A stretch of DNA of 64,000 nucleotides, taken from contig NC_091142.1 in assembly GCF_041381155.1 (NCBI RefSeq), positions 36,009,604 to 36,073,603 of the forward strand, read 5' to 3'. Positions 2,930-52,500 of the stretch are shown piece by piece. This DNA is from Argopecten irradians. Its lineage: Eukaryota; Mollusca; Bivalvia; Pectinida; Pectinidae. The notes beneath the pieces are model-generated. The model saw only the letters and a list, made by a program, of their open reading frames with translations, made no database searches and had not been told where the DNA came from. The position numbers and the translations under genes are program-made. Every line of letters begins with the position of its first letter. The stretch's first letter is position 1.

Positions 2930-3769
2930 TTATATCATATAGCACAAAAAAAAAGAAAAAAAAATACTTTTCAGTAATTTAACTTTAATTAATGTTAGTT
3001 TCAAATCTACGTTTCTATAGGTCGTTAGCATAACACGAATACTACTACTTAAGTTAGGTTTGATCTAAATGTGTTTATTTCTAAGTATGATTCTGTGATG
3101 GTTTTCATTACTTTCGTTCAATTTCATTTTCAATTAGAAAAAAATATAAATGTTTTCTGTTGACGGTATTATGGCAATTAAAAATTTGAGGTCAAATGTT
3201 ACATACCAATGTTTCCATATCTACGGGTAACGTATTCGGATTTTTTTCTATTAACGTTCTTGTTCACTCGAATATTCTTCACATCCAGCAACTCCGCATT
3301 TACAAGGTAATTCACCAAAAGATATTTGGTAAGATTAACAAATCATTTCCAAGTAAGTATATATTTTGGAATTGGATGAATTGTCTCCTATTCCAACACT
3401 AGGATACCTAAACTATGACGAACGGCTTTCCTGCCCAGGTGGCGGAGTTTATTGTTCTATATTTACAATTGCCACTGTTTCTGTATCGATAAACTATGTT
3501 GGAACAGATCTGTTTATTTCCCAATAAAGTGAGTGCAGAACGTGACCCGATTCGGTGCGTATGGATACATGTAAACATTTGCGGACTTCATTTGACATTC
3601 CACAAAATCGCGTGTCAGTGTTTACAAATAACACATGTACGAGAAAATCGTTTACGCAATTTACCTCGTGCTCCATTGGGTTTATCATCTCATAAACTAA
3701 ATGAAGTAAGAGGTGAATCCTTAAGTGTATATGTTCATCGGAAAAGACAGACTTCAATACTGTTTAACA
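2930..3769. other. Intergenic, no supported gene
   Basis: AT-rich spacer. Open frames here and in the next 300 bases lack splice context, family resemblance and coding-like composition. Nothing else is seen. Confidence 0.5.
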
Positions 3770-8520: not shown

Positions 8521-10215
8521 GCGCTATAGACCGAAGATCCGATAGCCCGATAGCCCGTATAGTCTGATAGTCAGAAATGCTATTGCTTTCTGATAGTCAG
8601 AAACGCTTTAGAAAGATCCGATAGTCCGTATGTCGAATAGTCCAAAGGCCCTATTAGTCCGAAAATCCGATAGGCCGAAGGCCCGATAGTTCGAAGGCTT
8701 TATATCCAAAGGCTTTTATAGTCCGAAGGCTTTATAGTCCGAAATCTGATAATCTGAAGGCTTTATAGTCCAAAGGCCATATAGTTCGAAAGTCCGATAG
8801 TCCGAAGGTTCTGTAGTCCGAAGGTCAGATAGTCTAAAGGCTTCATAGTCCGAAGGTCCGATAGTCTGAAGGACCTTAATAGCCCGAAGGCCATATAGTC
8901 CGAAGATCCGATAGTCCAGAAGGCCATATAGTCCGAAGACTATATAGTCCGAAAATCTGATAGTTTGGAAAGGCTTTACTGTCCAAAGGCCATATAGTTT
9001 GTAAGTCGATAGTCCAAAGGTTCTGTAGTCAGAAGTTCAGATAGTCTAAAGGCTTCATAGTCCGAAGGTCCGATAGTCTGAAGGCTTTATAGCCCGAAGA
9101 GCATATAGTCCGAAGGTCCGATAGTCCAAAGGCCAAATAGTCCGAAGACCAAATAGTCCGAAGACCTCATAATCCATAAAAGTTCCGATAGTTCAAAGGT
9201 TCTGTTAGGCCAAAGGTTCCGATTGCCTGATGGCACTTTTTGTCCGTTTCAGGTCCGATAGTCTGAAGGCTTGATAGCCCGAAGGCCATATAGTCCAGAA
9301 GGGTCCGATTAGTCCAAAAAGGCCATTTTAGTGCGAAGACCATTATAGTCCGAAGACCTTATAATCCGATAAACGACTAGTTCAAAGGTTCATGTAGAGC
9401 CAAAGGTCCGATAGTCCCTGAAGGCTTTATAGTCGAATGGTCCATCGATAGTCTGAAGGGCTTTATTAGTCCGAAGGTCCGATAGTCTGAAAGCGCTTTA
9501 TACAGTAGTCCGTGGGTCCGATAGTCTGATAAGCTTTATAGGCCGAAGACCATTTAGTACCGAAGGTCCAATAGTTTGAAAGTTCTGTAGTCCGAAGGTC
9601 CGATATTAGTCTGAAGGCTTTATAGTCCGAAGGTCCGATAGGTAGTCTGGAGGCTTTATAGTTTCGAAGGTCCGATAGTCTGAAGGCTTTATAGTCCCGA
9701 AAGCCATATAGCCTGAAAGTCCGATAGTTCGATGGCCATATAGTCGGAAGACAATTTAGTCCGAAGGTCCGATAGTTCGAAAGTTCTGCAGTCCGAAGGT
9801 CAGATAGTCTGAAGGTTCTTTAGTCCGAAGGTCCGAGAGTCTCACGGCTTAATAGTCCGAAAGTCCGATAGTCTGGAGGCTTTATAGTTCGAAGGTCCGA
9901 TAGTCTGAAGGCTTTATAGACCGAAAGCCATATAATCTAAAAGTCCGATAGTACGAAGGCCATATAGTCGGAAGACAATATAGTCCGGAGGTCCGATAGT
10001 CCGAAAGGCCTGTAGTCCGAAGGTCAGAGAGTCTGAAGGCTTCATAGTTCGAAGGTCCGATAGTCTGAAGGCATTATAGTCCAACGTACTTTAGTATGAA
10101 GGCTTGATAATCCGAAGAGTCTGCGTAGTCTGATAGGCCCATAGATTCGAAGCGCCCGATAGTGCAAAGGCCGATAGTGCGAGGCCCGATAGTGCAGGAA
10201 CAGGCCCGATTAATG
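8521..10215. repeat. Degenerate 16/32-bp tandem satellite
   Basis: About 1.7 kb of tandem variants of a ~16-bp monomer (consensus CCGATAGTCYGAAGGC). It often alternates with TTTATAGTCCGAAGGT to give a ~32-bp dimer. Units are heavily diverged with frequent 1-3 bp indels, which marks an old array. The dimer pattern is clearest at 9600-9700 and decays at both edges. No protein is credible here. Confidence 0.9.
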
Positions 10216-14955: not shown

Positions 14956-14979
14956 CCCCCCCCCCCCCCCCCCCCCCCC
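14956..14979 (+). repeat. Poly-C tract (24 C) before LINE ORF1
   Basis: An uninterrupted run of 24 C, three bases before the ORF1 ATG, which itself sits in a strong CGCCATGG context. Homopolymers of this length are rare in such AT-rich DNA; length error in assembly is possible. Confidence 0.9.
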
Positions 14980-14982
14980 GCC

Positions 14983-15762
14983 ATGGGCGCCAAAACCTTG
15001 ATATCCAAAGTGGACAGTCTCAGTAGTAAATTGTCTAAGCTTGATACCATTGAACGTGCTATTCAAGATATGTCTGACGATGTTAAAATTTTGAAAATTC
15101 GAGTCGACGAGGTTGAAAAATCACAACAATTTCTTGACTCCAAATTTGAAAAACAACGTAACCTCGGTGACCTTGAAGGTTTACACAGTGCCCTTGAACG
15201 GGCCGCTGATGATATCGTAGATCTGAAATGCCGCTCTATGCGAAACAATTTACTATTTTTCGGTATCGACGAGCAGGATGGTCCGGATTTCGACACGGTC
15301 GACACTAGTGGGGGAGGAAGGGTTAGATCCCCGACTGAAGATTGTATAGCTAAGATTCAAACATTGGCTCGCGACACATTACTGATACCTGATAGTCTTG
15401 CCATAGACAGTGCACATAGGATCGGGGAGAAAGGAAGGGGCAAGACCCGTCCAATCGTCGCCCGTTTCAACAGTAGATACCGCCAACAAAAAGAGGAGGT
15501 GAAGCAGAGATCCAGTAAGTTGAGGGGCACGAACAAATACATCACCGACCAGTATCCTCCCGAAGTTCAGGAAACTAGAAAACGACTCTGGCCCATATGT
15601 AAAAAGGCGCGGGAGGAAAACAAGAAGGCCTTTATTAAACGCGATAAACTCTATATTGATGGGGTACTGCACGTAGAGAAAACTTCGGATTCACGCGCTA
15701 CAATGAAAAAAACCCATACGGACCCCGCCCGTCAGGGAGCGACCGGTAGAGGACGACGTTAG
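14983..15762 (+). CDS. LINE ORF1 protein (L1-like nucleic-acid chaperone)
   Basis: A 259-residue intact frame. Residues ~1-85 are an acidic/basic heptad-like region (DSLSSKLSKL...DEVEKSQQFLDSKF) expected to form a coiled coil for trimerisation. The segment DLKCRSMRNNLLFFGI (about residues 80-95) is the hallmark start of the RRM-like domain of L1-type ORF1 proteins. The stretch AHRIGEKGRGKTRPIVARF (about 145-163) matches the family's R-I-G...R-P-I-V-F core, and the tail is strongly basic. In L1-type elements this protein coats the element RNA and acts as a nucleic-acid chaperone in the ribonucleoprotein. The stop is TAG at 15760-15762, and the ORF2 frame continues directly after it without a frame change. 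Confidence 0.75.
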   Translation: MGAKTLISKVDSLSSKLSKLDTIERAIQDMSDDVKILKIRVDEVEKSQQFLDSKFEKQRNLGDLEGLHSALERAADDIVDLKCRSMRNNLLFFGIDEQDGPDFDTVDTSGGGRVRSPTEDCIAKIQTLARDTLLIPDSLAIDSAHRIGEKGRGKTRPIVARFNSRYRQQKEEVKQRSSKLRGTNKYITDQYPPEVQETRKRLWPICKKAREENKKAFIKRDKLYIDGVLHVEKTSDSRATMKKTHTDPARQGATGRGRR

Positions 15763-16755
15763 GACAGTCACACACATATAGAGAGTGAGACAATTTCTGT
15801 ATTATCCTGGAACATTAATGGTGGTTTAGACACAAAGTTGAAGATAAATGATTTTAATTCTTATATAAAAAAAATATGATATTGTATTTCTTTCAGAATG
15901 TTGGATTCCAAATGATTACTCTGTAGAAATTGATGGTTTTAAGTCTTATTTCATACCTAGAAAACGAACGGCTTACGTACAAGGAGGTGGTATATGTATT
16001 TTGATCAATTCAAAATTAAAAGATTATGTTTCTTTATGCGAGATTATTTTTGACTCAGTAGTATGGGTAAAGATATCCAAAACATTGACAGGTAAAGATA
16101 AAGATATTTTTCTTGCGTGTGTTTATATGCCCCCTGTTGGCTCTCAATATTACAATCAATATAATTGTGATTTATTTTATGAATTGGAAACAAGTATAAG
16201 TAAATATACCCAGGACGGTGAAATTATGTTATTAGGCGATTTTAACAGTCGCACAGGTAGTTTAAATGACTTTATTCAAAATGATAGCTTGCATACTAAT
16301 GTTACAAGACAACTTTCTAATTTAATTCCGTATATACCTGACGTTGACATTCAGAGGCGGGTCAACCCCGACAGTGTAGTAAACCAGTTCGGTAATCGTT
16401 TAATTGAACTCTGTAAAACATGTGGTGTACGAATTTGTAATGGAAGAGAAGGTTTATGTTCTAAAAATGGTTACACATATTGTGGACACAATGGATCGAG
16501 TGTAATTGATTATCTTTTAATGAGTCCAACCTTATTCACATGTGTACATAAGTTTTTTGTTGGAAATTTTAATATGACATCTGACCACGCCCCCCTACAC
16601 GTGCAAATTAATACAGTTTCCCGATTGGTCGATAGTAGCGACACACGCGAGGACACGTGTGCCTACAACACACGTACCGTCTATCGATGGAATGATGATT
16701 TGAAAAATCAGTTTTTGGAAAATTTGGAATTTAATATAACGGAAATTAATAACTC
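15763..16755 (+). pseudogene. LINE ORF2 fragment: APE-type endonuclease, frameshifted
   Basis: The frame just after the ORF1 stop codes for SVLSWNINGG, the N-terminal strand of an AP-like endonuclease. It is broken by one extra base in an 8-A run at about 15867-15874. The next frame then carries VFLSECW, GGGICILI, VYMPP, LLGDFNSRTG (catalytic D and N), VIDYLL and SDHAPL (catalytic D-H), the ordered motifs of LINE endonucleases that nick target DNA. Coding similarity fades after about 16750 and the frame stops at 16804. No RT motif follows. No ATG precedes the endonuclease in its frame, so translation would have needed readthrough, reinitiation or another start. Inactive as it stands. Confidence 0.75.
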
Positions 16756-16811
16756 GGTGCGCATTGAAGGTATTGTAGGGCGGCGTATTAGGGCCACTAT
16801 ATAATTTAATT
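16756..16811 (+). other. Junction segment between LINE and palindromic array
   Basis: It contains TAGGGCGGCGTATTAGGGCC, which looks like the end of an inserted element rather than LINE sequence. No matching inverted terminus was found in the 250 bp beyond the array. Confidence 0.3.
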
Positions 16812-17277
16812 TATCTTGTACGTACAAGTTAGTATCTTGTACGTACAAGATAGTATCTTGTACGTACAACTTAGTATCTTGTACGTACAAGATAGTATCT
16901 TGTACGTACAAGTTAGTATCTTGTACGTACAAGTTAGTATCTTGTACGTACAAGTTAGTATCTTGTACGTACAACTTAGTATCTTGTACGTACAACTTAG
17001 TATCTTGTACGTACAAGATAGTATCTTGTACGTACAAGTTAGTATCTTGTACGTACAAGTTAGTATCTTGTACGTGCAAGATACTATCTTGTACGTACAA
17101 GTTAGTATCTTGTACGTGCAAGATACTATCTTGTACGTACAAGTTAGTATCTTGTTCGTACAAGTTAGTATCTTGTACGTACAACTTAGTATCTTGTACG
17201 TACAAGATAGTATCTTGTACGTACAAGATAGTATCTTGTACGTACAAGTTACTATCTTGTACGTACAAGATAGTATA
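16812..17277. repeat. 21-bp palindromic minisatellite (~22 units)
   Basis: Each unit contains TTGTACGTACAA, often extended to ATCTTGTACGTACAAGAT, an 18-bp perfect palindrome. Units are spaced exactly 21 bp with linkers of the type AGTTAGTATC, AGATAGTATC or ACTTAGTATC. Sequence identity is very high, so the array is young or homogenised. Because 21 is divisible by 3 and the unit lacks stops in several frames, long repetitive open frames on both strands are by-products. Confidence 0.95.
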
Positions 17278-17480
17278 ATGTTGAAACTCTCGGTATTAAA
17301 GGCTGTGGCTGATTTACTGTCACCATGGTATCGCATGAAGCTATACGTATATTACGTACCCTTTGTATAAGCCAAAGGGAAAAAAGAATACCTTGCCACA
17401 TGTTGTGGAGTTGTAATGCTGTGATAAGTTTCCGAACATATAGATGTAAATGTTTATAACAGAGTATTAACTATGATCAT
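17278..17480. other. Unassigned spacer between repeats
   Basis: Short non-repetitive stretch following the palindromic array. It is possibly the remainder of the element that carried the array. No ORF or terminus identified. Confidence 0.3.
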
Positions 17481-19335
17481 CATTTTGACAATAAATGATG
17501 TGTGTATATATGTCTAATAAACACAATCAAAGTACTGAAAGTACTAAATGGCTCGGTCTCAATGATTGGAGGATATATTTCTAAAGTCAACATTTTTTTG
17601 GACAATAAGAAATAAAGTTTGCTAGTGTTCCTTCCAGTTTGGACTTTTGAGGATTCCTTGGACACCAAGGTGTTAAATAAGAAACATATACTAAACTCTT
17701 AGGAGCCCATTCTAATATTTCCTATGGTGTTATATGCCAAATGACTTTATAGCATCTTTAACCTTTTCCTTGTTAATTTGATGTCAATTAAAATATCCAT
17801 TCTGAATTGCTATTCTCATTAAGTTCCTGGGACCAAAGTATCAGTTAACAAGTATTGTTTTGCAGAAGAGACAGACAAGAGGCATATTTTTCTATGCCAA
17901 AATGTCTTAAATATAGAATATGTCAGTCCTCAAGAAGACTTATCAATATAGTCATACCATTTCTGAATAAACTGGTCAATTGGTCTACTTTTAACAAGTT
18001 TTTGTAATTAGTCTTTTGTAAAACAGCAAGTTGATTGATATATCCAAACATGATTTAAACTAGCTCTGATAAAATATCTTAAACATCTTACAGCCATTTA
18101 AACAAGAGCTGTCGGAGAACAGTAAAGCTCGCCTATTCAGAAGAAGTTGTTGTTCAAGTATTTACTATTTAAACATGGAAATATGACAAATTAACAGACT
18201 AAAAAAAAAACTAAAGGGCCCCAAATTGGTTGTATTATCACGTTCAGCATCCATACACATTAGGAAAATAAAAATCATAAACATTTATGATGACTTAAGC
18301 TTAAACAATAGACAAAATAGAAACTTGCTCAAAAAACTTTAACGTGAAATATGACAAATTAACAGACTCAAAAAAAACCTAAAGGGCCCAAAATTGGTTG
18401 TATTATCACGTTCAGCATCCATACACATTAGGAAAATAAAATCAGAAACATTTATGATGACTTAAGCTTAAACAATTGACGAAACAGAAGCTTGCTCAAA
18501 AACTTTAACGTAAAATGGGACGCCAACGCTGACGCCGACGCCGACGCCGGGGGTGACAACATTAGCTCCCCTATTCTTCGAATAGGTGAGCTAAAAACGT
18601 CTGGTCTATTTTCATGTTAAGTATACATTATGCCAAAAAGTAATCATTCTACATTTTATTCCAATATCAATTGGGTATCTTGTTAGCTCGCCATAAACCA
18701 TGAATTGTTTTATACACTTTTTTAACTTGAGGAAATTACAAATGATTTTTTTCTACAATATTTGTATTTTCAAATCCCCATACTTCTGATGAGTATAATA
18801 AAACTGGCATTACAAGTGACTAAAATATTTTTCAGTTTTAAAATCAACAGGAAGGGATACATTTCTTTGTTTCTTAAAAATAGTAGACACTGATTTAATT
18901 GTTTGTTCAGCAGTTTTTTCCTTTTCTTTAAAAACGCTACCATTAATATTAAAAAATATACATAGATATGTATGCCCTTCTTATCAAAATAATTCTATAT
19001 CCCATAACGTAAACTGGTGTTGATGGGCCAATTTACGTTTTGAGAATATTACAACTTTTATCTTTCTGATATATTAGATTATAATTTCCATGTAATGCAA
19101 TAATGTAATGCAATATTATTCAAAATCCGTTTAACATTTGTTGTAGAACAGTGTCATCGCCATATAAAATGATAAAAGTTTGGGATACATTTCAATATTA
19201 TCTGTAAATAATTTGTCAATAGTTGTCAGACAATTAACATTCTTTTTCCGCAAGATAAGATTCTAAGTCATCAAGGTAGATTGAAAATAGGAAAGGAGAT
19301 ATAAAATAAGGTACCACACTGTGCATGTATATGTT
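17481..19335 (-). pseudogene. Decayed LINE, reverse transcriptase to C-terminus
   Basis: Read on the minus strand from about 19320, the sequence gives ISPFLFSIYLDDLESYL (RT motif), then after two frame breaks FIILYGDDTVLQ, the RT catalytic box (YGDD near 19153-19164; non-LTR RTs usually have YADD). Further downstream come FIQKWYDYID near 17.96 kb and a RIAIQNGYFN/CPRNPQ-type segment near 17.6-17.8 kb. These recall the C-terminal domain of LINE ORF2 proteins. Numerous stops and frameshifts show it is long dead. A Helitron-like element is inserted inside it at 18103-18594. It lies in opposite orientation to the + strand LINE at 14.8 kb and is far more diverged, so it is a separate insertion. 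The extent is approximate. Confidence 0.6.
18103..18594 (+). mobile_element. Helitron-like (pearl/HINE-type) non-autonomous element, copy A
   Basis: It starts with CAAGAGCTGTCGGAGAACAG and a subterminal AGCTCGCCTATTC. It ends with a CCTATTC-TTC-GAATAGG hairpin (7-bp stem) followed by TGAGCTAA, that is, a CTRR terminus shortly after a hairpin as in Helitrons. The interior holds two ~167-bp core repeats and a GACGCC microsatellite (18526-18550). The AGCTCGCCTATTC head is an inverted match to the GAATAGGTGAGCT tail. No coding capacity. It is nested in the decayed minus-strand LINE. Confidence 0.7.
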
Positions 19336-22300
19336 CAATGTAAATAAACAATGTAAGCTGATCTTGCAGAATTGCCTTACAGCGTTATAATAAATGCAGT
19401 TGTCTCATTGCATTGGATATAATTGATTTAAGGCAGTTCATGTGGCGACCGAAAAAGGTAAAATCACCATTTTCAGAGTGATCAGAGAAGATTGATAGTC
19501 AAGGAGGGAAAACATAAGACAACCTGTGTTATGCAAATTAATATCTAATTTATTTTGAATAAAGTATGCCGAAGATGATGATTAGTGTATTATTAACAAT
19601 AATCTTAATATGTTTTCTAAAAATATTAACAACTAATGTCATATTGTGTTATAAATTTAATGTTTTATTTATTCTTTTTATTTCAAGCATGTAGATGTCA
19701 TAGAAAATAAACAAATACCAAGTATATGCATATTAAAGTAAAATTCACAAATCACAACACTAATGTGTATTGTATATATGGAATGAAGATGATGATGGTA
19801 ATTATTTGGATCAAAAATGTTTACAACATTAAATGTATTATATATATGGAATTTGAATATGATGATAGTAATTATTTTTATATCAAAAACTATTACAGTA
19901 TTAAGCTACCACAGTTGAAAATGATTTCTTTCATTTTGTTCACACATTTTTTCTCCTGGACTGGTTCCAATTGAAATGATACTTGCATGTAGACATTCTG
20001 TAAAACATAGAAAACAATAAATGTATTAACAGAGTAATTACCGAAAAAGGCTAATATCATATATTTAAACATTTTTTTATAAATAACAATACCAGTTTAG
20101 AGTAAATATTATTGAAATTTATTTTCTGTTGTTCTTTAGTCCTCCTGTTCTTTGGAGTTTTGTCCTTCATAAATTGATTAATACTAATACAGCAGTTGTC
20201 ATATAATGTATCTGATAATGTGCACACAGAAGTATAAGTATATGCATATGCATGTGTGCATGGGCACGGTGATAAGTTTATTTTTGCCGAGTAAAAAGTT
20301 CAAAGAACTAGTATTGTTCATACTCAAAGATGTAATCGCACTAAAAACAGTGATCGTGTAGGCTTTTGTGTGATTGCATTTGTAAGGGGTGTATCTCTGA
20401 ACGCCAACATTTTGGATTTAGCTGTAGGGTAGTTTGTTTGTGACAGTGGTTATAGTCTTTTTTCCTAAAGGCAGACCCAATGCCACAGGTAAATTTACCT
20501 GTAAAAGTTACCTGTGTTGATACTTATCTAAGTGTATTATTGATTAATTTTCATTTCAATAAGTGTTCATATGTAATATCAGATACATATATACATAATA
20601 TATGTTTCTGTTAATATCTATGAAAATATAACAATAGAATCTATGAATGAAATTAAATTAAATTAAATTCACAATGATTTTATTTCAAGAATTTTAAAGA
20701 TTTTCTTGATATATCTAAAATATCTGGTATAAATCTCATTAGATTTTCAATAGATTGATACTAAAATCAAGCAAAATTCTTTGAAACTTATTTCACATGG
20801 AAGTAACTTTACCATTCAGTAATATCAAAAGAAAAAATCCAAAAAGGAATTATCCAGTTTCAACTTAGTGTAACACTAATTTGATTAAAAGTTTGAAATA
20901 ATATAAGCCTTTTTTTTGCCTGTTGAAAAGTGATATATTTCCACAAGGTCTTCCATATATGTCTGTTAAGTGACCTTATATACATATATAGTACATGTAC
21001 ATGTAACATCTGCGTTAATAACCTACCAAAGAGTAAGTGAATTTATGTCAAATATGATGCATTTCAAATTTTACTTGTACTTGACTGACCTTTTTAAGTT
21101 AACAGAACATACAATATATTTTGAAAGTTGCATTATGATGCATCATTTATCATAATTTATATAATTTTCCTGCTTTCTTATCCTATGATGGTATTTTCTA
21201 GATCAGCGTGATGCTACATTATAATGTAAATGTACATTGTAACATTTGTATATCATTATAGCAAAAAAGCACCCAATAATTAAACTGTTGTCCGTTAACA
21301 GCGCAGTAAAATTATATATTTTTGTGCATGTTAGAAATAACATATAAATTTCTTTCCTATGGTTGAATTTCGGTCAAACATTGTTACTAGATACAAATTG
21401 GTATATGTACTATAATCTTTAAACAGAAAAAATTAGAAAACTGTTAATTTGGTATTCTGAGCAATAAAAGTTTGCAACATTTTGAGAATTACAAGACCTT
21501 CAACATATGGACTTGAAATAATTTTTGCCAGTATTGCAACATTAACATCTACAATGTGTATTAAAATGAATATGGTTAAGACCCTAAGTAACAGTCTTCA
21601 ATCTCATTTCATTTTAGTATTTTTACATTATTAAGTGACTTCTAAAAATATTTTGTATCAAAAATACATATAGAGCATTAAACCCCAATGATATATTATT
21701 ACCAATGTTTATAAAACATCATAATGTGTGTTTGTGTCGGCTTCAATAGATTACCAACTTAAACTATAATCAACAGGTCAAAATTTCCGACAATATTAAT
21801 TTTAAACTTTTGCTTGATATTGTTTTTCTCCACTCATTTTCTAACCAAATACTTCACGGTGTACGTCTATGCGATAAGAGAAATCATGCGCAACTATGCA
21901 CGGTCACAAGAAATGAAAGTTGGCTAAGAATGTAGCCCTACTGGAACTCCTATGTCAAAACAGAATACTGTTACATTAGAATATACACTGATCAAGAAAC
22001 CTGTTTTTTTCTGAAAAAATTGAGATATGATTTGTAAAAAAATATTTCACCTGGAACTCAAAATGCATCGTTCTTGATAATCCACATGTAGCTCCATATT
22101 AATTCTTAGCATATATATATTAAAGCACTGATTATCTTTTGATTAATAATTTACGTTGTATATAATACGGAATATATTGAATGAATTTTTATCCAAAACC
22201 CACCACATGTTACCTATGATACTGATTGAAATACAGGTATATCTCAAGTGACTTTACAGGTGAAAATAAAGACAGCTTATATGAAACAGTATATAATTGC

Positions 22301-28220: not shown

Positions 28221-29038
28221 CAAGAGCTGTTGGAGAACAGCAGAGCTCGCCTATTCAGAAGAAGTTGATGTTCAAGTATTTACTATTTAAACATTAAAAT
28301 ATGACAAATTAACAGACTCAAAAACCCGCTAAAGGGCCCCAAATTGGTTGTATTATCACGTTCAGCACCCATACACATTCGGAAAATAAAATCATAAACA
28401 TTTATGATGACTTATGCTTAAACAATTGACAAAATAGAAACTTGCTCAAAAACTTTAACATGGAAATATGACAAATTAACAGACTCAAAAACCCCTAAAG
28501 GACCCCAAATTGGTTGTATTATCACGTTCAGCATCCATACACATTAGGAAAATAAAATCCTAAACATTTATGATAACTTAAGCTTAAACAATTGACAAAA
28601 TAGAAACTTGCTCAAAAACTTTAACATTGAAATATGACAAATTAACAGACTCAAAAACCTCCTAAAGGGCCCCAAATTGGTTGTATTATCACGTTCAGCA
28701 TTCATACACATTAGGAAAATAAAATCATAAACATTTATGATGACTTAAGCTTAAACAATAGACAAAGTAGAAACTTGCTCAAAAACTTTAACATGGAAAT
28801 ATGACAAATTAACAGACTCAAAAAAAAAATAACCCTAAAGGGCCCCAAATTGGTTGTATTATCACGTTCAGCATCCATACACATAAGGAAAATAAAATCA
28901 TAAACATTTATGATGACTTAAGCTTAAACAATTGACAAAACAGAAACTTGCTCAAAAACTTTAACGTGAAATGGGACGCCGACGCCGACGCCGGGGTGAC
29001 AACATTAGCTCCTCCTATTCTTCGAATAGGTGAGCTAA
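28221..29038 (+). mobile_element. Helitron-like (pearl/HINE-type) element, copy B, four core repeats
   Basis: Same head (CAAGAGCTGTTGGAGAACAG) and tail (CCTATTCTTCGAATAGG hairpin, then TGAGCTAA) as copy A, in the same orientation. It has four core repeats where copy A has two. The core unit starts (ATGACAAATTAACAGACTC) fall at 28301, 28468, 28634 and 28801, so the unit is 166-167 bp. All but the first carry the HindIII site in ACTTAAGCTTAAAC. A GACGCC microsatellite precedes the tail. In bivalves, Helitron-like elements carrying ~160-170-bp satellite-related monomers are known. Membership in that group is inferred from architecture. Confidence 0.75.
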
Positions 29039-30601: not shown

Positions 30602-32568
30602 AGGGGGCCAGTAACTGACTATATAACTCACTAGTTTCGACATACATTGAAATACATAATATACGAAATTTTATTGAATATGGATATCTTCTGTTTTGTT
30701 TACAGTAATTAAAATATCACGATGACAAATGAGGCACCTGGATCCCTGAGATCCGCCATCTTGGATCTAAATGGTAGACTGCAAGGTAGTCAGGTACGGC
30801 GCGCTCCATATCCGACTGTTTTGTACCGATCAGAAACCTTAAATCGATCTCAACGTCATATTTTACAGAAAACGACGTTATTTTTTCTCTAAAAGAATTT
30901 ACGTCATAAACGATATGTATATACAAGGGAGATAAACACTGTAAAAGCCAAAGATGGAATTCCTGTATGTAAGCAAACAATTTATATCGACCTTGACGCT
31001 GTGAGGCTTTTGACTATGTTTTACAATAATAATATGTATAGAAGATCTGCCCGGGGGACCATTTTTCTCTGGGAAGTTGTCAACACTGTCTTCATGTTTC
31101 TGTTAAGCTGAACTACCAGTTGGAGTAACTTATAAACATTGATCATATTACAGGTTTGGGTCCAAAATAAACAAATAACATTTCCCCAATCTTCCGTAAC
31201 ATTACAATGTCACATTCCGTGCCTGTACTTATAACTCGCTGTTGACATTCTCTTGACATCTGAGTCTATTAGAATCCATGTCCGGTGTAGATTTTTTACA
31301 TACTTCATACCTTTGGATAAACATGTCAACTTGTTTACCTGATGACCTGAAATTTATTGGCAAGTTATTGAAAAAACAAATGAATGTTTCGAAATCCTAA
31401 TCAAAGGAAAGTCATCGCTACATGTTCAACGTTAACATAGGTCGTTATCAATCATCCGTGAATTTAAATTAATAAATCGGCGGACAATCATCCCAAATCG
31501 CAATGGGTTCTGTTTACCACGGCTTGTATCCACTTTCAAAAAGCCAACATATTCTTAACTGCTCCAACAATATTAGTGGTATAGCAAGACGAGTCACTTT
31601 TGAAACATTGGGTCGTGTCTTACTTTTACTTCCGATAGGCGATTAATCTAATGCTGAGAGTTACATTTTCAAATGTAGGATTGTGACAATATAAAACATT
31701 TAAATTACATTTAAAAAAGCAATGATCTCAAATGCTTTCCTCTTTTTTGTTATAAATAAAGAAACATTTTTGACAAAAAAATCATGTAAAACAAATATTT
31801 ACATCTCCTAAATAAATTTTCATGGCCCAGACAAAACATTGATCAGCCATCACTTTTACTTGTGTTTTGTCCGCTCGAAATCACATTCCGTTTTTAGAAG
31901 TAGCCAATGTGCAATTCGCCATATTTAAAACTAGGTCAAAATGCTACTGAAAGGATGCATTATACTTAATCCGCTAAAATACTATTTCGCGATGTATGAA
32001 GTTTCGGTTTTACTATATAAATGGGGTAATTAATACATATATTGACTGTAAGTACTTCTTGATGTTAGCTTGGCATAAAATTATGGTTTAAGAGATGATT
32101 TATACATATACAGTAAGTACACGTTACCTTGGTTCGGGTTATGTATATTGATATTATTGCAGTTTTCCACAGGAGCTAGGCGTTCTGTCAGTAATATATA
32201 GCATAAATATATAAAAATATCCCCTATATACTATATAAAATCACCAGGAATGAAATGCATCGTTGGCCGCCTTTTTCGCCACTTTCGGTAAAAGTTCTGT
32301 ATGTAATGATACTATTTTGAAATGTATGCTAAATACGCGTGGAATAAAAAACACATTTTTAAAATTAATATCTAGAATGCATAGAGGAGGGAGCTTTTCT
32401 GTCCAGATCATATAATAGGTTACACATTATCTCCGGTGTGGTTTGACGTGAATAGCTCCGGACTGAACATCACAGTGACCGCTAGACCGTTATAATAAGT
32501 CTGTTTACAGCTGACCAAGTCATTCATAGTGCGAAAAGGTAAAACATCAATCTTGTTCTTTTCCCCCC
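30602..32568. other. Intergenic, no supported gene
   Basis: AT-rich spacer. No supported exon or RNA gene. Confidence 0.4.
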
Positions 32569-33459: not shown

Positions 33460-34870
33460 ACTCGATATAGAGAACAGACGTCAACAACACAAGATATAGA
33501 GAACAGACGTCAACAACACAAGATATAGAGAACAGACGTCAACAACATTCGATATAGAGAACAGACGTCAACAACTCTAGATATAGAGAACGAGCGTCAA
33601 TAACACTCGATATAGAGAACAGACGTCAACAACACTCGATATAGAGAAAAACCGTCAACAACACTCGATATAGAGAACAGACGTCAACAACAATAGATAT
33701 AGAAAACAGGCGTCAACAACACTCGATATAGAGAACAGACGTCAACAACACTCGATATAGAGAACAGACGTCAACAACACTCGATATAGAGAACAGACGT
33801 CAACAACAATAGATATAGAAAACAGGCGTTAACAACACTCGATACAGAAAATAGACGTCAACAACTCGATAGAGAACAGATGTTAACAACACTCGATATA
33901 GAGAACAGCCGTCAATAACACTGGATATAGAGAACAGACGTCAACAACACTCGATATAGAGAACAGACGTCAACAACAATAGATATAGAAAACAGACGTC
34001 AACAACACTCGATATAGAGAACAGACGTCAACAACACTCGATATAGAGACCAGTCGTCAACAACACTCGATATAGAGAACAGACGTCAACAACAATAGAT
34101 ATAGAAAACAGACGTCAACAACACTCGATATAGAGAACAGACGTCAACAACACTCGATATAGAGAACAGACGTCAACAACACTCGATATAGAGAACAGAC
34201 ATCAACAACACTCGATATAGAGAACAGACGTCAACAACACTCGATATAGACAACAGACGTCAACAACACTCGATATAGAGACCAGTCGTCAACAACACTC
34301 GATATAGAGAACAGACGTCAACAACACTCGATATAGAGACCAGTCGTCAACAACACTATATATAGAGAACAGACGTCAACAACACTCGATATAGAGAACA
34401 GACGTCAACAACACTCGATATAGAGAACAGACGTCAATAACACTCGATATAGAGAACAGACGTCAACAACACTCGATATAGAGAACAGACGTCAACAACA
34501 CTCGATATAGAGAACAGACGTCAACAACACTCGATATAGAGAACAGACGTCAACAACACTCGATATAGAGACCAGTCGTCAACAACACTTGATATAGAGA
34601 ACAGACGTCAACAACACTCGATATAGAGACCAGTCGTCAACAACACTATATATAGAGAACAGACGTCAACAACACTCGATATAGAGAACAGACGTCAACA
34701 ACACTCGATATAGAGAACAGACGTCAACAACACTCGATATAGAGAACAGACGTCAACAACACTCGATATAGAGAACAGACGTCAACAACACTCGATATAG
34801 AGAACAGACGTCAACAACAGTAGATATAGAAAACAGGCGTCAATATCACTCTATATAGAGAACAGACGTG
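33460..34870. repeat. 29-bp minisatellite, ~48 units, with higher-order repeats
   Basis: Unit: CTCGATATAGAGAACAGACG plus TCAACAACA. About 1.4 kb of near-identical copies. Variants recur with fixed spacing. The ACCAGTCGTC variant at 34281 recurs at 34571, and the CACTATATATAG variant at 34354 recurs at 34644, both 290 bp (10 units) apart. CAATAGATATAG variants at 33691/33807 and 33977/34093 are 116 bp (4 units) apart. So multi-unit segments have been duplicated. Most units carry GACGTC. Confidence 0.95.
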
Positions 34871-44300: not shown

Positions 44301-46400
44301 ACTATATCTATTTGAAGATTTAGGTAATACGGTATCAAATTTTAAAGGTTGTTTGATAATATATTTGTATTTGCAACATATTTTTCGCTTTCACTTTTGT
44401 TTTTTAATTTTATCTGATTTTCTCATTTCCACATATGCCTTTTGTACACAATATTCTGAAATGAATAATTAAACTTGAATCAGATTTGAACTTTAGGATA
44501 AAGATTAATAAAAGTTTTAAACATGTTTCAAAATCCTATTTCTTTGTTGTTTATACTTGAAGATACTTTTGTAAATAATTGTACGGACAAAGAAACAAAA
44601 TAAAAGAAAGCTTATATTAAAATTGAAATTACCAACAAACCATAATAATCTAATTCATAATTTCACAACTCTAGTTATTTTTTTTTTTATTTTCAATACT
44701 TTTACGAAGAATATATTCATCATTGTCAGTTATTTTCTAAATTTTGTGGAAGATGTAAATCGGTAAAACATTCTATTGCTTAAAATGATTATATTTTTTC
44801 TAGCCTTCATATAATTATAGAGAATTTTCTATGCATATTTATATAGATTTGATTAAATATAACCATACATTGTTTCAATGTAGGTACAGAAAAAATAAAT
44901 TCATTTTCCAAAGTATTCAATGTATAAGCTTATAATCAATGTATGCATTTTGGTTACTTTCCGTAAATGTCAAGCCCTAACTACATTCGGAGGTATTATG
45001 TGTATTAGTACATGATTTATCGTTCCGAGGTGATTACGGAACTCTGCATTCCTCACTGACAACATGTAAACTGAGTATTAGCGAGATTTGACGGTACGGT
45101 GACAGTCACTGTGATGGCTGAGTGTCTGGATGTGGGTCAGTGTGTTTCGGTCTGGGGCAGACATTGTCGGCTCGAACTTTTCCTTCTTCATTCAAAACTA
45201 TAATTTAATCGCCATTCATTCAAATGGCCTAAAGTGTCAGTGTGTACACACGATCGCACTGATTCAATAAAAGGAGCAGTTCTAGAAACATCTCCTAGGA
45301 TAATAAATGTCATTACATCCACGTCACAATGAGTAGAAATTAAAGAAATTGTTATGTATTTCTTTTTATTTAAAATATTTTGACGACTCTTGAATCGCTG
45401 ATGATCTATAAAAATGATAAAACAAATTTAAGGCGGTTTATACCACAACGCTTAACTAGCCGTGCGCGTATTGTTGAATTGTTTCTTAAAGATTAATGTT
45501 GTCCATTATGTATTATCAGTCATACCTAATAGTGAGAGGTAACGTAAGATAATAAAAACTGAGTATCTTCGCGTCAATTGTTTTTTCTTCAATTGCCTTT
45601 TATTTCTGCTTTCACGGAAACATTTATTTTCATTTAACGGGAAACGTCGACCGATAACGCAAAACGTCAACCAGAAATGTAGCTCTGACATTTATGATAA
45701 CATGTAAAATAACACGACCAACCATCTAAGTCGTCTAAAAATCGTTAAACCTATGTTCACTTAACCTGCTCGTCTTTAGCCAGTCTGACCACAGTCCAGC
45801 GCCCGAGGGAATCCGAGTCCTGTCGGCGTTTGTCATCAGTGCCCTCTGACATAAGTGTTACGAAGAGGACTGATACACATAAATTGGGTTCCCTGAGGCA
45901 CTGAGCTCTCGTTATATTGCATGCATTGTTTGAATTTTTGAAACTAAAAATGAATTTACTTTTGCAATAAGAAATTAAGATATACACAATTTGTATAAAT
46001 AGGTTTGTATATTATAAAGTGATTCGATATTGCTTTCACAGAAAATGTAATGATCAAAATATTTACAAACAATAATTCGCATGTAGTGATTAAGAGAGAA
46101 ATTAGATTCAAAGTTTTTGTTACTAGTGTTTTATAATGTTGTTATATCAAATTCAGGTAACGCTTTTGATTAACTTTCATTTGCTTTTAAATGATACCGG
46201 TATTTCAAAGTTGAAAAATCGTATTTTTCCATCGCTTTTTCAAAGAATCGGTGTGGCCGTTCACAGAACTCTTTGTTCTTTGTTAGTTTTATTTTTTTGT
46301 TCACTGAGAATACTTTACTCACATCCATTTGACCTCAAAAGACAAGAGCTGTTTGCTGGACAAACAAAAATAAATTGAATATAAAATGGGAACATTTTCT
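35329..46400. other. Large intergenic region, no supported gene
   Basis: About 11 kb upstream of the monooxygenase gene. AT-rich, with only short open frames lacking splice partners. It includes an A18 run at 41056-41073, a GGGGAGATAACTCTT motif at 36670 and its inverted form GAGTTATCTCCCTT at 39893. Both resemble ends of dispersed mollusc repeats. Distal regulatory elements could be present but cannot be identified by reading. Confidence 0.4.
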
Positions 46401-46593: not shown

Positions 46594-49500
46594 ATGAAAA
46601 CAATCGCCATCATTGGGGCTGGTTGTAGCGGACTGACGGCCATCAAGTGCTGTCTGGATGAAGACCTGACTCCCGTTTGTTTTGAACGGGAAAATGACAT
46701 TGGAGGATTATGGAATTACAAAGAAAACCCCAAAGTCGGGACTGGAAGTGTGTATCGTTCCTGTGTAATGAACACTAGTAAGGAAATGATGGCTTTCAGC
46801 GACTTCCCACCACCTGAAGATTTCCCAGTTTTCCTTCCACACAGATACGTTAATAAATATTTCCAACTTTACGCTGAAAATTTCGATTTACGGAAGCATA
46901 TAAAATTCCGTACGGAAGTCACTCGAGTTGTTCCGTCTCCGGACTACGAACAATCCGGGTGCTGGGATGTGACATACTGCTCTTGTTCAGGACCGGACAC
47001 TGAGAAAATTACCCAAAGATTCGACGGGATCTTGATTTGTACTGGACACCATACCTTTCCAATGATTCCGGAGTTTGAGGGAAAGGACCAGTTCCATGGT
47101 CAGACAATGCATACGCATAGTTATCGCTCCAACAGGGATCTGGCTGACAAGAAGGTTCTCGTTGTCGGTAAGTGTGATTTAAGTATTAATAGGGTGTTGT
47201 TGTTCTGCTTTATCAATATCTGCATGATTTACATAATTATGTTATTGTAAAATCTTACAACCCCGTATATGAATTTAGTCCTGTGCAATTTCACTAACAT
47301 TGTGTTTAATAGGCATGAGTGTGTTTTTATATGTTCGTTTTCCTCATATTCCAATGCATGGCCAGATAGATGTACATTTTACAATGTATGATTCAGAACT
47401 GTAAAATCGCACTATTCATCTTACATTTGATTACGGTCGGTGGTTTACCCCTTTACTACGTAACACAGTTTTTGGGACTCTGACGCTACTACTTTAACAG
47501 CTCTGAACGCGAAATTCCATAATGCATAACTACAAAATATTATACATGTTCTATATATCCAATTCCAAGCTTTTAAATACGTATTCTATAGTTTTTCTCA
47601 TTGTATAATATATAGCTTCTACACATGCAACCAATTTTTTTTATTATATTTTGTATGACAAACCAACTTACCAAATGCATGTACTATAGATTGTTTAATG
47701 CTTTAGAATGTGTACTGTCTTTGTGTTGTTGGACGTTAAATGCATGCACAAAATGTCTACCTAATCTCCAATATGCTGTTGTATAAGCGAGTATAGGAAA
47801 CTAACTACTCCCATACAAAACGGCATGGATCCTTACATAAGCATACGTACAAACCGTTATTACTTTTATTGAGATGTTCTGTAGTTTCATACGGGTTTAG
47901 TATGTCGAAATAAAAATAAAAGGGAGTGATGTAGGTAGTTTTAAGAAACATTTTCAGGTAAATATCACATATGGATCTTAGTACTAGGTTAATCACACCC
48001 TCGATACTCCGTCACTATCACTGTCATCGTAATCACAGGGGTTCGAGTTATCTAATAAAGATGTCCCATCGCCGACCGAGTAAAACGATACTCATCATTG
48101 GAACAATAACTTGTGTTTAATCGTGTATATATATTTTAATTAAAACAGAAATAATAAAATAATTCATTTTTCTTTTGGTGCATGTGCAATCAGTACTTTA
48201 TTCTATATATGACATAATGTAATTGAGTTTTTCGGACACAATTAATTATTTTGAATATTGTTATCTTGAAGTGAAATAAGAAGCTCAACCCTTTCAATGG
48301 TGGTAATGATGTAAAGTAAGTAGCTTTTGTAACCGAAGAAAAACACATTTCGCCTGCGCTTGTTTTTGATAGAGAAAAATACCATTCGTCAACACCGGAG
48401 CATGGTATTAATTTCTGAAAAAATCATTATTGCTTAAAGCGTCCAACACTTTTCAGATGTCAAAACGAAGGTAACCGCTTGTAAAAGTATAGGTTTTTTA
48501 AAATTTGGGTGTTGGCTATCATGGCTTTGCTTAGAAAGTTTCGTTTTGAATTGTAAATTTATCGCTTTATACATATTCATTATTTCTGAATAATAATTAT
48601 ATTCATTTCTAAGCTAAGGCCATCGGTTCTGAGATAAGATGGATGGTATAATTCATCAATTTTTAGTGTATTGTTCGAGTTTGTTTTAGTTCACTTTAAA
48701 TTGTGTCAATGTTCCACATTGAAAATTAAAAAAAAATGAAAATAATAAAGACACTGTAACAAAAACAATATGTGGGATCTTCTTCTGTTTTATGTTTTAA
48801 AGACCTTTTGAAAACCGTTTACAATTCTGGTTACGAAACGTGTGGAACATTGATTTAAATGTCATTTAAGATATGAAGACGGTAAAAAATTATTGACTGT
48901 CGGAACGGAGTTTTTCTCGAAATTGAAATTTGACTTTATTTCGTTTTCTTTAAAATACTTTGCAAGTACATCTGCACTGCAATATAAATATCATCGCCAG
49001 TGAAAATGATCCCACTGTGAAAAGTAACTATAATACATTGAAAACCGAAATTAACCCAAATCATGTATTGTAATTGGATTCACCGTAGACGGTTGTTTTC
49101 GCGGAGATGATATTTAAGCAATTTCGTCCAAATTAGGTCCGCGAAAAATGATAAATTGTTGAACGATATCTACCTTGAAACCAAAATCGCGAAAATTCTA
49201 AATCAATAATATATGATTTTCTCGTTTTTAGATCAAATCGCGAAAGTTTTTGTCGCGAAAATAACCGGCAATGCGGTATTAAATTTTATGAACAGAATGC
49301 TGAACATGCGTTTAAGTACTCGCTATTGTAATGCATGTCATCACAGTGTAGGATCATGCCACTATTAATCACCAGCCACATGGTAAAGTCATGTGTTTAT
49401 TTTACAAGACATTTATAACTTGAATAACACAAACTGTTATACAGGACCACATTTGTTTGTACTGTAAATAACCCACATGGGATGAGGAAATGGACATCCA

Positions 49501-52500
49501 CCTGCAAATATGCAAGTGGAAATAACAGAATCATACAATCAAAATACCCAGTGAGTACAAACAGCTGTTTTTATGTTTTATATTGATATACTTTATGGTC
49601 AATAACACACGTAGACACACACTCGTTACATAAATTAACGCGTTATCCCTAATGTGTCGTGTGTTAAAAGTATCATGACGTTTATTAGCGATATAAAATA
49701 AAGTCATTTTTGCAGGGTTTTTTTTCGTTAAAGACTAAGTCAATATTTTTTTTAATTGAAATGATTTTTTTTTATTTCCGATACTATAAAAATAATTATG
49801 ATAATCGAGTCTTAATCTGTGATCTTGCGCAGTATTCCATACCAAGCGATAAGTCACGCGCAAAAATACAACAATCGCTATAAGTAGTCAAATAGGTAAA
49901 CTTAATGAAAGTAAAAATGAGGTCCAAAGTACATTAAAAACTAGATTTCGTATTTGATGACATTGTTCGAATGTTTCTATTACTGAATAATGTGATATAA
50001 TGTTACGTTTTCCTGATACATTGGCGTTAACGCAATTAGCAACATCACTTTTCTATTATTGTATCGTTGTTTTTTAAGCAATATAATGTTATAATAGTTG
50101 CATTCTTTATGTGTTTATTTTTAATCGGGATGCAATATTCAAAAAATTACCTTTTATCGTTAACGTTTATGCATTTATAATATATAATAAAGACTAATGC
50201 ATCACGTTTGTCATTATGAATTAGCAGTTTTAGTCTGACTAACCACCATGTGGAAAAGATGCGTATTACACATCTACTTGGACATAACAAAGGGCAAGTG
50301 TGACACAGGTGTTTTACTCGGTTAACGTAGTAAATTGTCATCCATCAATCATCAGAATAACTTACACTTGCTTTATTCTGTATTTAAATATTACAGAGTT
50401 ATCTATCCTTGTGGTTAGTGTATTGATTGTGATGTCATGTGTTTGCGAGCGTAACGTCATATTATTTGTAGAAAACGACGGAAATTGCGCCCATAAAATA
50501 ATGACGTCACAATGGATACAGACCCGCAAAGGAGCTAATATTCAAAGACCTATTAGACGGTTATAGGTTATGAGTTATCGTTAATTGGCAGCTTTAATTT
50601 GTGTTTTTTTTTCTTATATCTGTTTTTTTGTTTTTGTTTTAGGAATCGGGAACTCCGGAGCAGACATTGCTGTGGACATCAGCCACGCGGCATCACAGGT
50701 AGGCTTCTATTGTCTTTAATCAACGGTATATCTATGGATGGACAAGATACTTCCTTTTGAGTACGATTACAGAATTATATTTCAATCAGCTCAAACACAT
50801 GTACACATTTTGTCGAACGAATATTATAATCACTTTGTCGTTTTTAAAATCAGTATATCTTTATTTTTTATCTTCGTAACTCTGAAAAAACACATTTCCA
50901 TGTTAGGATTTATGACTTGGATCTGAAACAATCTAAGCCGTTGACTGGAAAAAAATCTGATCAATAAAGTATTTTTTAAGTTTTCAGATTAAAAATGAAA
51001 AAAGATAGATAGATTAGTTTCAGTTGTCTTGTTGTGCTATTATAAGGTATTTCATTAGATTTGTAGGATCACATCATCCTATTACAGTAGTCAATGTGAA
51101 ATGTTCTATATTTAGAATGTAGAGTCAAAGATAGCATCCGGTTCTGTGATAAGAAAGAAATTTCAAGAAAATTGTTGTACCCAAATAGCATGTATCACAT
51201 CACTTTTCTATCTTTTTTAAGGATTTCTCTGTATTATCATAACATCACGTCTTAATGGTGCTTACAAGTTAACGTAAAAGAAAATAACAAAATGGAGTAT
51301 TACGTCTTAACATCTATATCGTAATAAGGACTTGACACACAACTTGTTATTGTTATTCTGTTCGGTTTGAACGCCTTGTGGTTTTCCTAGTTTTTCACTA
51401 CAATGTTTTTGATGTTTTGCTTTTATTTCAACTTGTTTATGAATAGTTCTCCGATATGTGACATTGTCGGGTACTGTCATTGACAAGATACTCGGAGTAT
51501 ATGTAAACTAAATTTTATTTGTTTCAAGGTGTTTCTTAGCACCAGAAGAGGGGCCTGGATTATAAACAGAAAGGGGTTTTGGGGACTTCCGGCGGATGCC
51601 ATGGCTAACAGTAGATTTGCGTTCATGTTACCAAAGAGCGCTCTGCAATGGGGAGTCGAGAAAATGTCCAATTTCAACTTCGATCACAAGAAATACGGCA
51701 TCAAACCGACAAACAGGTGAAAATTCCCAGATCATACACGATGTATTTCCCTTATTACACAACTGCTACTTTTTAAGCCGTCAATTCAACATAATGGATT
51801 GTTTTTCTAGTCATAGAAATACACACCATCACTGTCACTGCCGTTAATATCTTGGAATTAACAATGTGCTCATAAATTGGCACATAATTCCCGAATATCA
51901 CTTACCTCTGGAGCTTATTTTAAGCTTACAATTGTTTATTAATAAGGTAATGACTTTTGTTTTTATTACTATAGAGCGTTGCAGTCACATCCGACTATAA
52001 ACGACGAACTCCCACTTCGCCTTCTGACCGGAAGTATCAAGATCAAACCAAACGTCCGACAATTTTCAGCCGACAAAGTCTCTTTTGAGGACGGGAGTTC
52101 AGAACAGATCGACACAGTTGTTTTTGCCACGGGTTACAACTACACTATACCAATCGTGGACGAATCCATCACGAGGGTGAAGGATAATGAAACGTGTCTC
52201 TACAAGTTTATGTACCCCCCTCACCTGAAGCACCCTACCCTTGGTATTATTGGACTCGTGCAGGCGATCGGAGCTGTTATGCCAATATCGGAGATACAGT
52301 GTCGATGGTATGCTAGAGTCATAAAAGGTAAGGTTTATTTATATTTAGACTATCATAACGAATCACAACTAAATATTAAGTCCTGTTCTCCCTTATTATA
52401 TATTATTAAAGTATCCTTTTTCTACTGACTGGAACTTTACATCGGGCTATTTAATTGTTTGCCAAATACAACACAACAATTATTTACTTTAAAGTAGCGA

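Follow-up and report, generated by a model that had tools for sequence, protein, structure and literature searches.

A palindromic 21-bp array in Argopecten irradians is probably a terminal arm of a non-autonomous IS3EU-like transposon

An array of palindromic 21-bp units in the genome of Argopecten irradians very likely forms one arm of compound terminal inverted repeats, the ends of a cut-and-paste DNA transposon that is non-autonomous and of the IS3EU type; its units are candidate grips for the transposase. The array lies in a 64,000-bp stretch of DNA (the window), which is C9:36009604-36073603 of the assembly (G000). The element is a known kind of mobile element with unusually regular palindromic ends, and an apparent stand-alone minisatellite is hereby corrected to a transposon end. 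The initial annotation had recognized the symmetry, the period and the break in a neighbouring LINE, all of which stand, but it did not identify the array as a terminal arm of a DNA transposon. The case shows how a young "satellite-like" array of palindromes can be dispersed by forming the ends of a transposon, and this recently mobile family, with a natural site number of 2 to 42 per end, is a ready series for testing whether Foldback-like repeat-rich transposon ends are needed, helpful or inhibitory. The relevant features of the window are the following.

14973..16775, + strand: young LINE, 5'-truncated, the insertion target (ORF1-like frame, endonuclease domain, start of ORF2)
16770..16775, + strand: presumed left copy of the 6-bp target duplication, GTATTG
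16776..16811, + strand: outer terminal inverted repeat, 36 bp, TAGGGCGGCGTATTAGGGCCAC..., with 243 + and 247 - genome matches; TA start in the family
16812..17276, + strand: array of 22 palindromic 21-bp units, polarity TATC-TTGTACGTACAA-(G/C)(T/A)TA-N inward; inverted at the other end of other copies
17277..17526, + strand: internal sequence beside the array, no recognised gene, ending at 17526 (99.2% identity to L049; 98.8% to L006, L043 and L061)
17527..18100, no strand assigned: start of a different young high-copy repeat, which replaces the remainder of the element

All 21 steps between the 22 units of the window array are exactly 21 bp, in agreement with the earlier description of about 22 near-identical units at a constant period. 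A length of 21 bp is two helical turns, which puts all sites on one helix face. Of the 22 units, 19 have an exact copy of the 12-bp core TTGTACGTACAA, a count that favours the core because units here and in the other copies were found partly by it. With up to one mismatch, the core has 22 matches inside the array and 1 outside it in the window, where shuffling expects 0.28. The outer arm is TATC in every unit and the inner arm is GTTA, GATA or CTTA, and because of this variation in the inner arm the length of the palindrome differs among units. The perfect palindrome is 26 bp in the last unit, 20 bp in five, 14 bp in nine and 12 bp in four, and a core change breaks it in three (units 13, 15 and 17), so that the original statement that each unit is an 18-bp or 12-bp perfect palindrome was inaccurate. 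Nevertheless, the palindromy is not ordinary for a tandem array. Only 57 of 20,000 shuffled 21-mers of the unit had a palindrome as long as 14 bp, and in four of the window's other tandem units, picked for comparison, the palindromes are only 6, 6, 4 and 2 bp.

Elsewhere in the window there are tandem arrays at 8637-10082 (16 bp x 87, degenerate), 33460-34869 (29 bp x 48.8) and 52526-53605 (36 bp x 30.1), the last adjoining exons of a flavin-containing monooxygenase gene (exons at 46594-54825, + strand). A tandem unit of about 168 bp is common to 18178-18516 (2.0 copies) and 28290-28972 (4.1 copies).

Two tandem cores occur 4133 times in the window's own assembly (845.8 Mb), compared to 0 for the reversed control. 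The sequence at 16778-16797, which is outside the array, has 243 forward and 247 reverse genome matches at up to two mismatches, and its reversed control also has 0. Whole copies (e.g. L006 and L007) have such termini at both ends with a palindrome array inward of each, and the inverted match between the ends extends over 358-471 columns in L006 and 182 in L007. The loci fetched were 31 +/- terminus pairs and nine loci of listed single termini. The 36 paired copies described here are the 31 pair loci, L006 and L007, and the three of the nine single-terminus loci where a partner was present (L062, L069 and L070). These copies were drawn from the first approximately 100 listed of the 490 termini (contigs C1-C3 and C11), and all per-copy counts are therefore counts for a sample.

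The family termini are TACGG..CCGTA, and TAGGG stands at the single end of the window copy. The copies were selected by terminus pattern, and the conservation of the termini is therefore partly by construction, but the outer TA was outside that pattern and is found at both outer ends in 35 of the 36 paired copies. Beyond the outer TA there is an exact direct repeat of 6 bp in 24 of the 36 pairs, of 7 bp in one and of 5 bp in one. An exact duplication of at least 5 bp is absent in the other 10, though four of them come within one mismatch of a 6-bp repeat. Since the exact 6-bp repeat lies outside the TA, the TA is part of the element and the duplication is 6 bp; the element starts TACGGCGGCGTATTAGGGCCAC and duplicates 6 bp of its target. 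One flanking sequence is common to 7 of the 24 copies with exact duplications (L007, L033, L038, L046, L050, L052 and L062), and counting these seven once leaves about 18 independent 6-bp duplications.

The 36 copies range in length from 152 to 2587 bp (outer TA excluded), and near-identical copies are found at different sites. L041 and L055 have an identical 250 bp beside the array, yet their duplications are different (GAAACG and GTTTTC), and the window copy is 99.2% identical to L049 in the sequence beside the array. Eight copies (the seven named above and L040) lie in common flanking sequence that has CGGTAG/CTACCG on one side or both, and here a larger repeat seems to have carried the transposon along as it multiplied. 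Both flanks of L019 (the same locus as L031) are internal sequence of another family copy, near TCTAATAAACAC, which is apparently a self-insertion into a family member.

Arrays are present at both ends of all 36 paired copies. The 28 copies with separate arrays contain 987 units, with between 2 and 42 at each end, and of their 931 gaps 845 are exactly 21 bp, whereas the 8 copies whose two arrays meet contain 136 units, each counted once. Counting the meeting arrays twice gives 1259 units, 1089 of 1187 gaps and 782 windows; the recount without double counting is used here. Because the palindromic core alone cannot show polarity, the spacers were used, 678 of them between exact cores in 26 copies and the window (the 8 meeting copies and 2 more short ones were dropped). 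The spacer CTTAGTATC occurs 207 times and its reverse complement once, GTTAGTATC 175 times versus once, and the third commonest, GATAGTATC, 127 times versus once. With polarity this strict, the arrays are true mirror images. The outward arm TATC is retained in 639 of these 678 spacers and the inner arm is GTTA in 306, CTTA in 215 and GATA in 143. The range of 2 to 42 units per end means that a fixed number is not needed, and L067 has a perfect outer terminus with no array adjoining that end. The initial annotation had raised the prospect of an assembly artefact or of random copies without conserved flanks or period; both the flank and the 21-bp period are conserved across genome copies, and thousands of units arranged likewise across the assembly make an artefact unlikely.

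The window copy was inserted into a LINE. The LINE at 14973-16776, which contains an endonuclease domain (PF14529), matches L072 and L073 at 99.7% identity across 1804 columns. When 16300-16780 was used as the query there were 15 matches including the window, and in the 4 long ones (C216, C3, C5 and C2), at 99-100% identity, the match ends at 16776. L072 (C216) and L073 (C3) read GTATTG-TTACACAAG at the insertion site, which is the empty site, whereas GTATTG-TAGGGCGG stands in the window; L074 and L075 have small differences at this site. It should be noted that L072 and L073 have identical matches to the window and may be one locus twice. L073 also runs past the break point into a reverse transcriptase domain (RVT_1). 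From the empty copies and this continuation it follows that the LINE ran on beyond 16776 and that the transposon cut into it, which bears out the earlier remark that the array sits where a LINE ends. The right copy of the duplication is missing in the window, and GTATTG is therefore taken as the duplication by reference to the 6-bp duplications of other copies. A terminal arm of a transposon accounts for the conserved flanks, the mirror-image arrays elsewhere and the stop of the LINE all together. The window LINE copy is truncated on its 5' side beside a run of C at about 14957-14980.

The far half of the element is replaced in the window. Where the window changes after 17526, all 11 of the other copies printed continue with A-rich sequence. 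The repeat at 17527-18100 was at 99-100% identity in all 40 scored places (window included; 501 candidates), and since the query began at 17527 the repeat's own left limit is unproved. The remainder of the element and the next ~1.5 kb of the LINE could be located neither in the downstream part of the window nor in two neighbouring 10-kb stretches, and a search of the window for an inverted partner of the left flank gave nothing above shuffles. Loss by deletion or by exchange between repeat copies would explain the absence of both the far element half and the LINE 3' half. A retrotransposed LINE-plus-transposon transcript ending at the AATAAA at 17516-17521 was rejected, as the longest word common to the flanks is 8 bp (the top ten of 100 shuffles had 10-12) and only 5 bases follow the signal. 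Pfam searches with five minus-strand frames of 17483-20299 found nothing convincing for the repeat at 17527; the minus-strand frame at 19237-19404 has a 16-residue reverse-transcriptase-like motif in common with the LINE, a weak likeness. Older relatives of the internal part of the element are found in the window at 8626-8844 and 30625-30861 (~73%) and at 45646-45690 (84-87% over 45 bp).

Each end of the element has an outer terminus of ~36 bp (TACGG...), inward of which stands a ladder of 21-bp palindromic units, and the opposite end is its mirror image. In the model proposed here, a transposase supplied in trans would make its cut at the terminal TA, and the part of it that binds DNA, probably dimeric, would grip the 12-bp dyads. 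Repetition on one helix face could raise occupancy and specificity and help to bring both ends together, and slippage or unequal exchange would shift the number of units. The element entered the LINE of the window at GTATTG, and the far end and the LINE 3' half would have been lost later at the junction with another repeat. The most likely role of the array would be a ladder of transposase-binding sites. By analogy with the ends of Muta1, Galileo and piggyBac, each unit is a candidate dimer site, and the sites might either help or restrain transposition. Cooperative binding of a dimeric protein, which the initial annotation had put forward, is thus still the best guess for function. A stronger version, in which recognition and pairing of the ends are governed by the number of sites rather than by one unique site, with the transposase polymerising along up to ~42 dyads per end, is speculative and on balance doubtful. 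The accessible portions of two descriptions of IS3EU (PMC10045372, PMC12730594) do not describe such a site-number design.

Passive growth is a serious rival as an explanation of array length. The transposon would be the same, but the array would be a minisatellite produced by slippage or unequal exchange that is useless for transposition beyond the first one or two units, and this is a substantial possibility, though not the favoured one. The wide range of unit number is consistent with it, as are window units 13 and 15, identical copies at a distance of 42 bp such as a duplication of two units would leave, and the perfect terminus of L067 without an array. Core variation points the same way. 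In 590 middle units from 28 copies, chosen independently of their own core, the departure per site is 0.8% for the core against 9% for the spacer, but this gap stems from common alleles at three spacer sites. Rare variants per site number 4.7 in the core versus 5.75 at spacer sites 3, 4, 6 and 7, and because these are about equal, recent selection on the core is without support. When the middle units of all 36 copies were considered, 53 of 689 had a departing core, in 22 written forms, some of which are one change read from opposite arms. None of the 22 is palindromic, and there is therefore no compensatory change in this set. One unit of the short relative L063 has a symmetric core change, TTATACGTATAA; this is anecdotal, and L064, a duplicate of L063, is without the symmetry. 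Against passive growth stand the palindromic unit, so unlike the four other array units compared in the window, and the arrays at both ends of 36 pairs with mirror polarity and a mostly 21-bp step.

Other explanations fare worse. The array could serve the host, either as sites for a dimeric host factor or as a source of self-pairing small RNA, but this is improbable. The core does occur in the AraR operator of Geobacillus (PMC5289569), so the dyad can be a repressor site, but AraR is bacterial and the array travels with transposon ends. The self-pairing RNA suggested at the outset does have a strong predicted fold (-306.7 kcal/mol, z -33.6), but such folding is automatic for any array of palindromes and is worthless as evidence of function. 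A Tc1/mariner-type element with a TA target duplication, which would fit the TA at the outer ends of 35 of 36 pairs, is refuted and has next to no chance of being correct, because the exact 6-bp repeat in 24 of 36 pairs lies beyond the TA and the TA belongs to the element. Least credible of all is a stand-alone minisatellite or assembly artefact. The window by itself shows only an array, but the termini are conserved at hundreds of places and all 36 copies examined are built alike, which refutes the stand-alone reading.

The termini and the 6-bp duplication fit IS3EU and no transposase was found, and the family is therefore classed as probably IS3EU-like and non-autonomous. Its ends are Foldback-like, since tandem subrepeats make up the long inverted repeats. 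When the 36 copies were scanned for open frames no transposase was found, the longest frames being those of the arrays, and no autonomous partner was found among the copies examined. An autonomous copy could be among the 23 listed single termini that were left out, or among unlisted ones. A similar internal frame of about 113-118 aa is present in L046, L050, L057 and L060, and these four examples had no Pfam match below E 0.03; the recurrence is probably due to chance. Membership in Mutator/Muta1 was rejected because it requires an 8-9-bp target duplication and the family has 6 bp. Helitrons and Helentrons are not known to have inverted termini or a target duplication, and a Helitron-type carrier was rejected because both are present here.

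Outside this genome, the viral contigs scanned had 0 matches to the unit, to the tandem core and to the terminus. The sole match in the scan of bacterial and archaeal contigs was in Chitinophaga arvensicola (L001, 3969-4001), where two TTGTACGTACAA dyads exactly 21 bp apart lie directly upstream of a 344-aa frame and are perhaps a paired operator. Searches of the literature, Repbase and Dfam aside, gave one Geobacillus paper for the core, none for GGCGTATTAGGGCC and no account of the family.

Comparison with known systems draws on the available parts of the papers cited. IS3EU elements have TA..TA termini and usually 6-bp duplications (PMC10045372), with TAYGG..CCRTA ends and inverted repeats of over 30 bp (PMC12730594). 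The family resembles them in its TACGG..CCGTA ends and TA..TA termini, in the 6-bp duplication of its copies (24/36 exact, the window copy being one-ended) and in the inverted repeats of more than 30 bp in L006 and L007. It differs in that no transposase was found in the 36 copies and in its palindromic unit arrays, which are unmentioned in the available text of these two descriptions. Muta1 of Aedes aegypti, a Mutator-like "type2 Foldback" element, has inverted repeats composed of a terminal motif and nine 12-bp tandem repeats (PMC5225508), and the two are alike in having a short terminal motif with tandem subterminal repeats in long inverted repeats and derivatives of variable repeat number. 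However, Muta1 belongs to another superfamily and has 8-9-bp duplications, 12-bp units and 3-4-bp spacers.

Galileo (P superfamily) and Foldback-like elements also have long, internally repetitive ends. The long repeats of Galileo contain extra THAP sites for the transposase, and its authors propose that multiple sites give specificity (PMC3688188). Galileo differs in its 7-8-bp duplications (PMC4168063), long direct repeats and only few known sites. The ends of piggyBac contain 19-bp palindromes, and a palindrome is bound by two C-terminal domains of the dimer (PMC11707139), which provides a likeness for palindromes as a dimer target. However, these palindromes are asymmetrically placed and non-tandem, and the target is TTAA (PMC7351741). 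In piggyBat, subterminal sequence lowers activity (PMC11707139). The AraR operator contains TTGTACGTACAA (PMC5289569), but it is the site of a bacterial repressor and the match is a coincidence as far as can be seen.

A likeness in unit size is CgiSat43 of the Pacific oyster, a 21-bp satellite with 66.7% AT and about 3145-3416 monomers on all 10 chromosomes (PMC8268682). The unit here is also 21 bp with 14 of 21 positions A or T, a comparison made by description and not by sequence. In the portion of the oyster table available, CgiSat43 has no Repbase (transposon) match, and CgiSat35 and CgiSat47 are assigned to IS3EU (PMC8268682). CgiSat43 may be the same unit as the array described here, which is only a lead, and the family may therefore already be catalogued.
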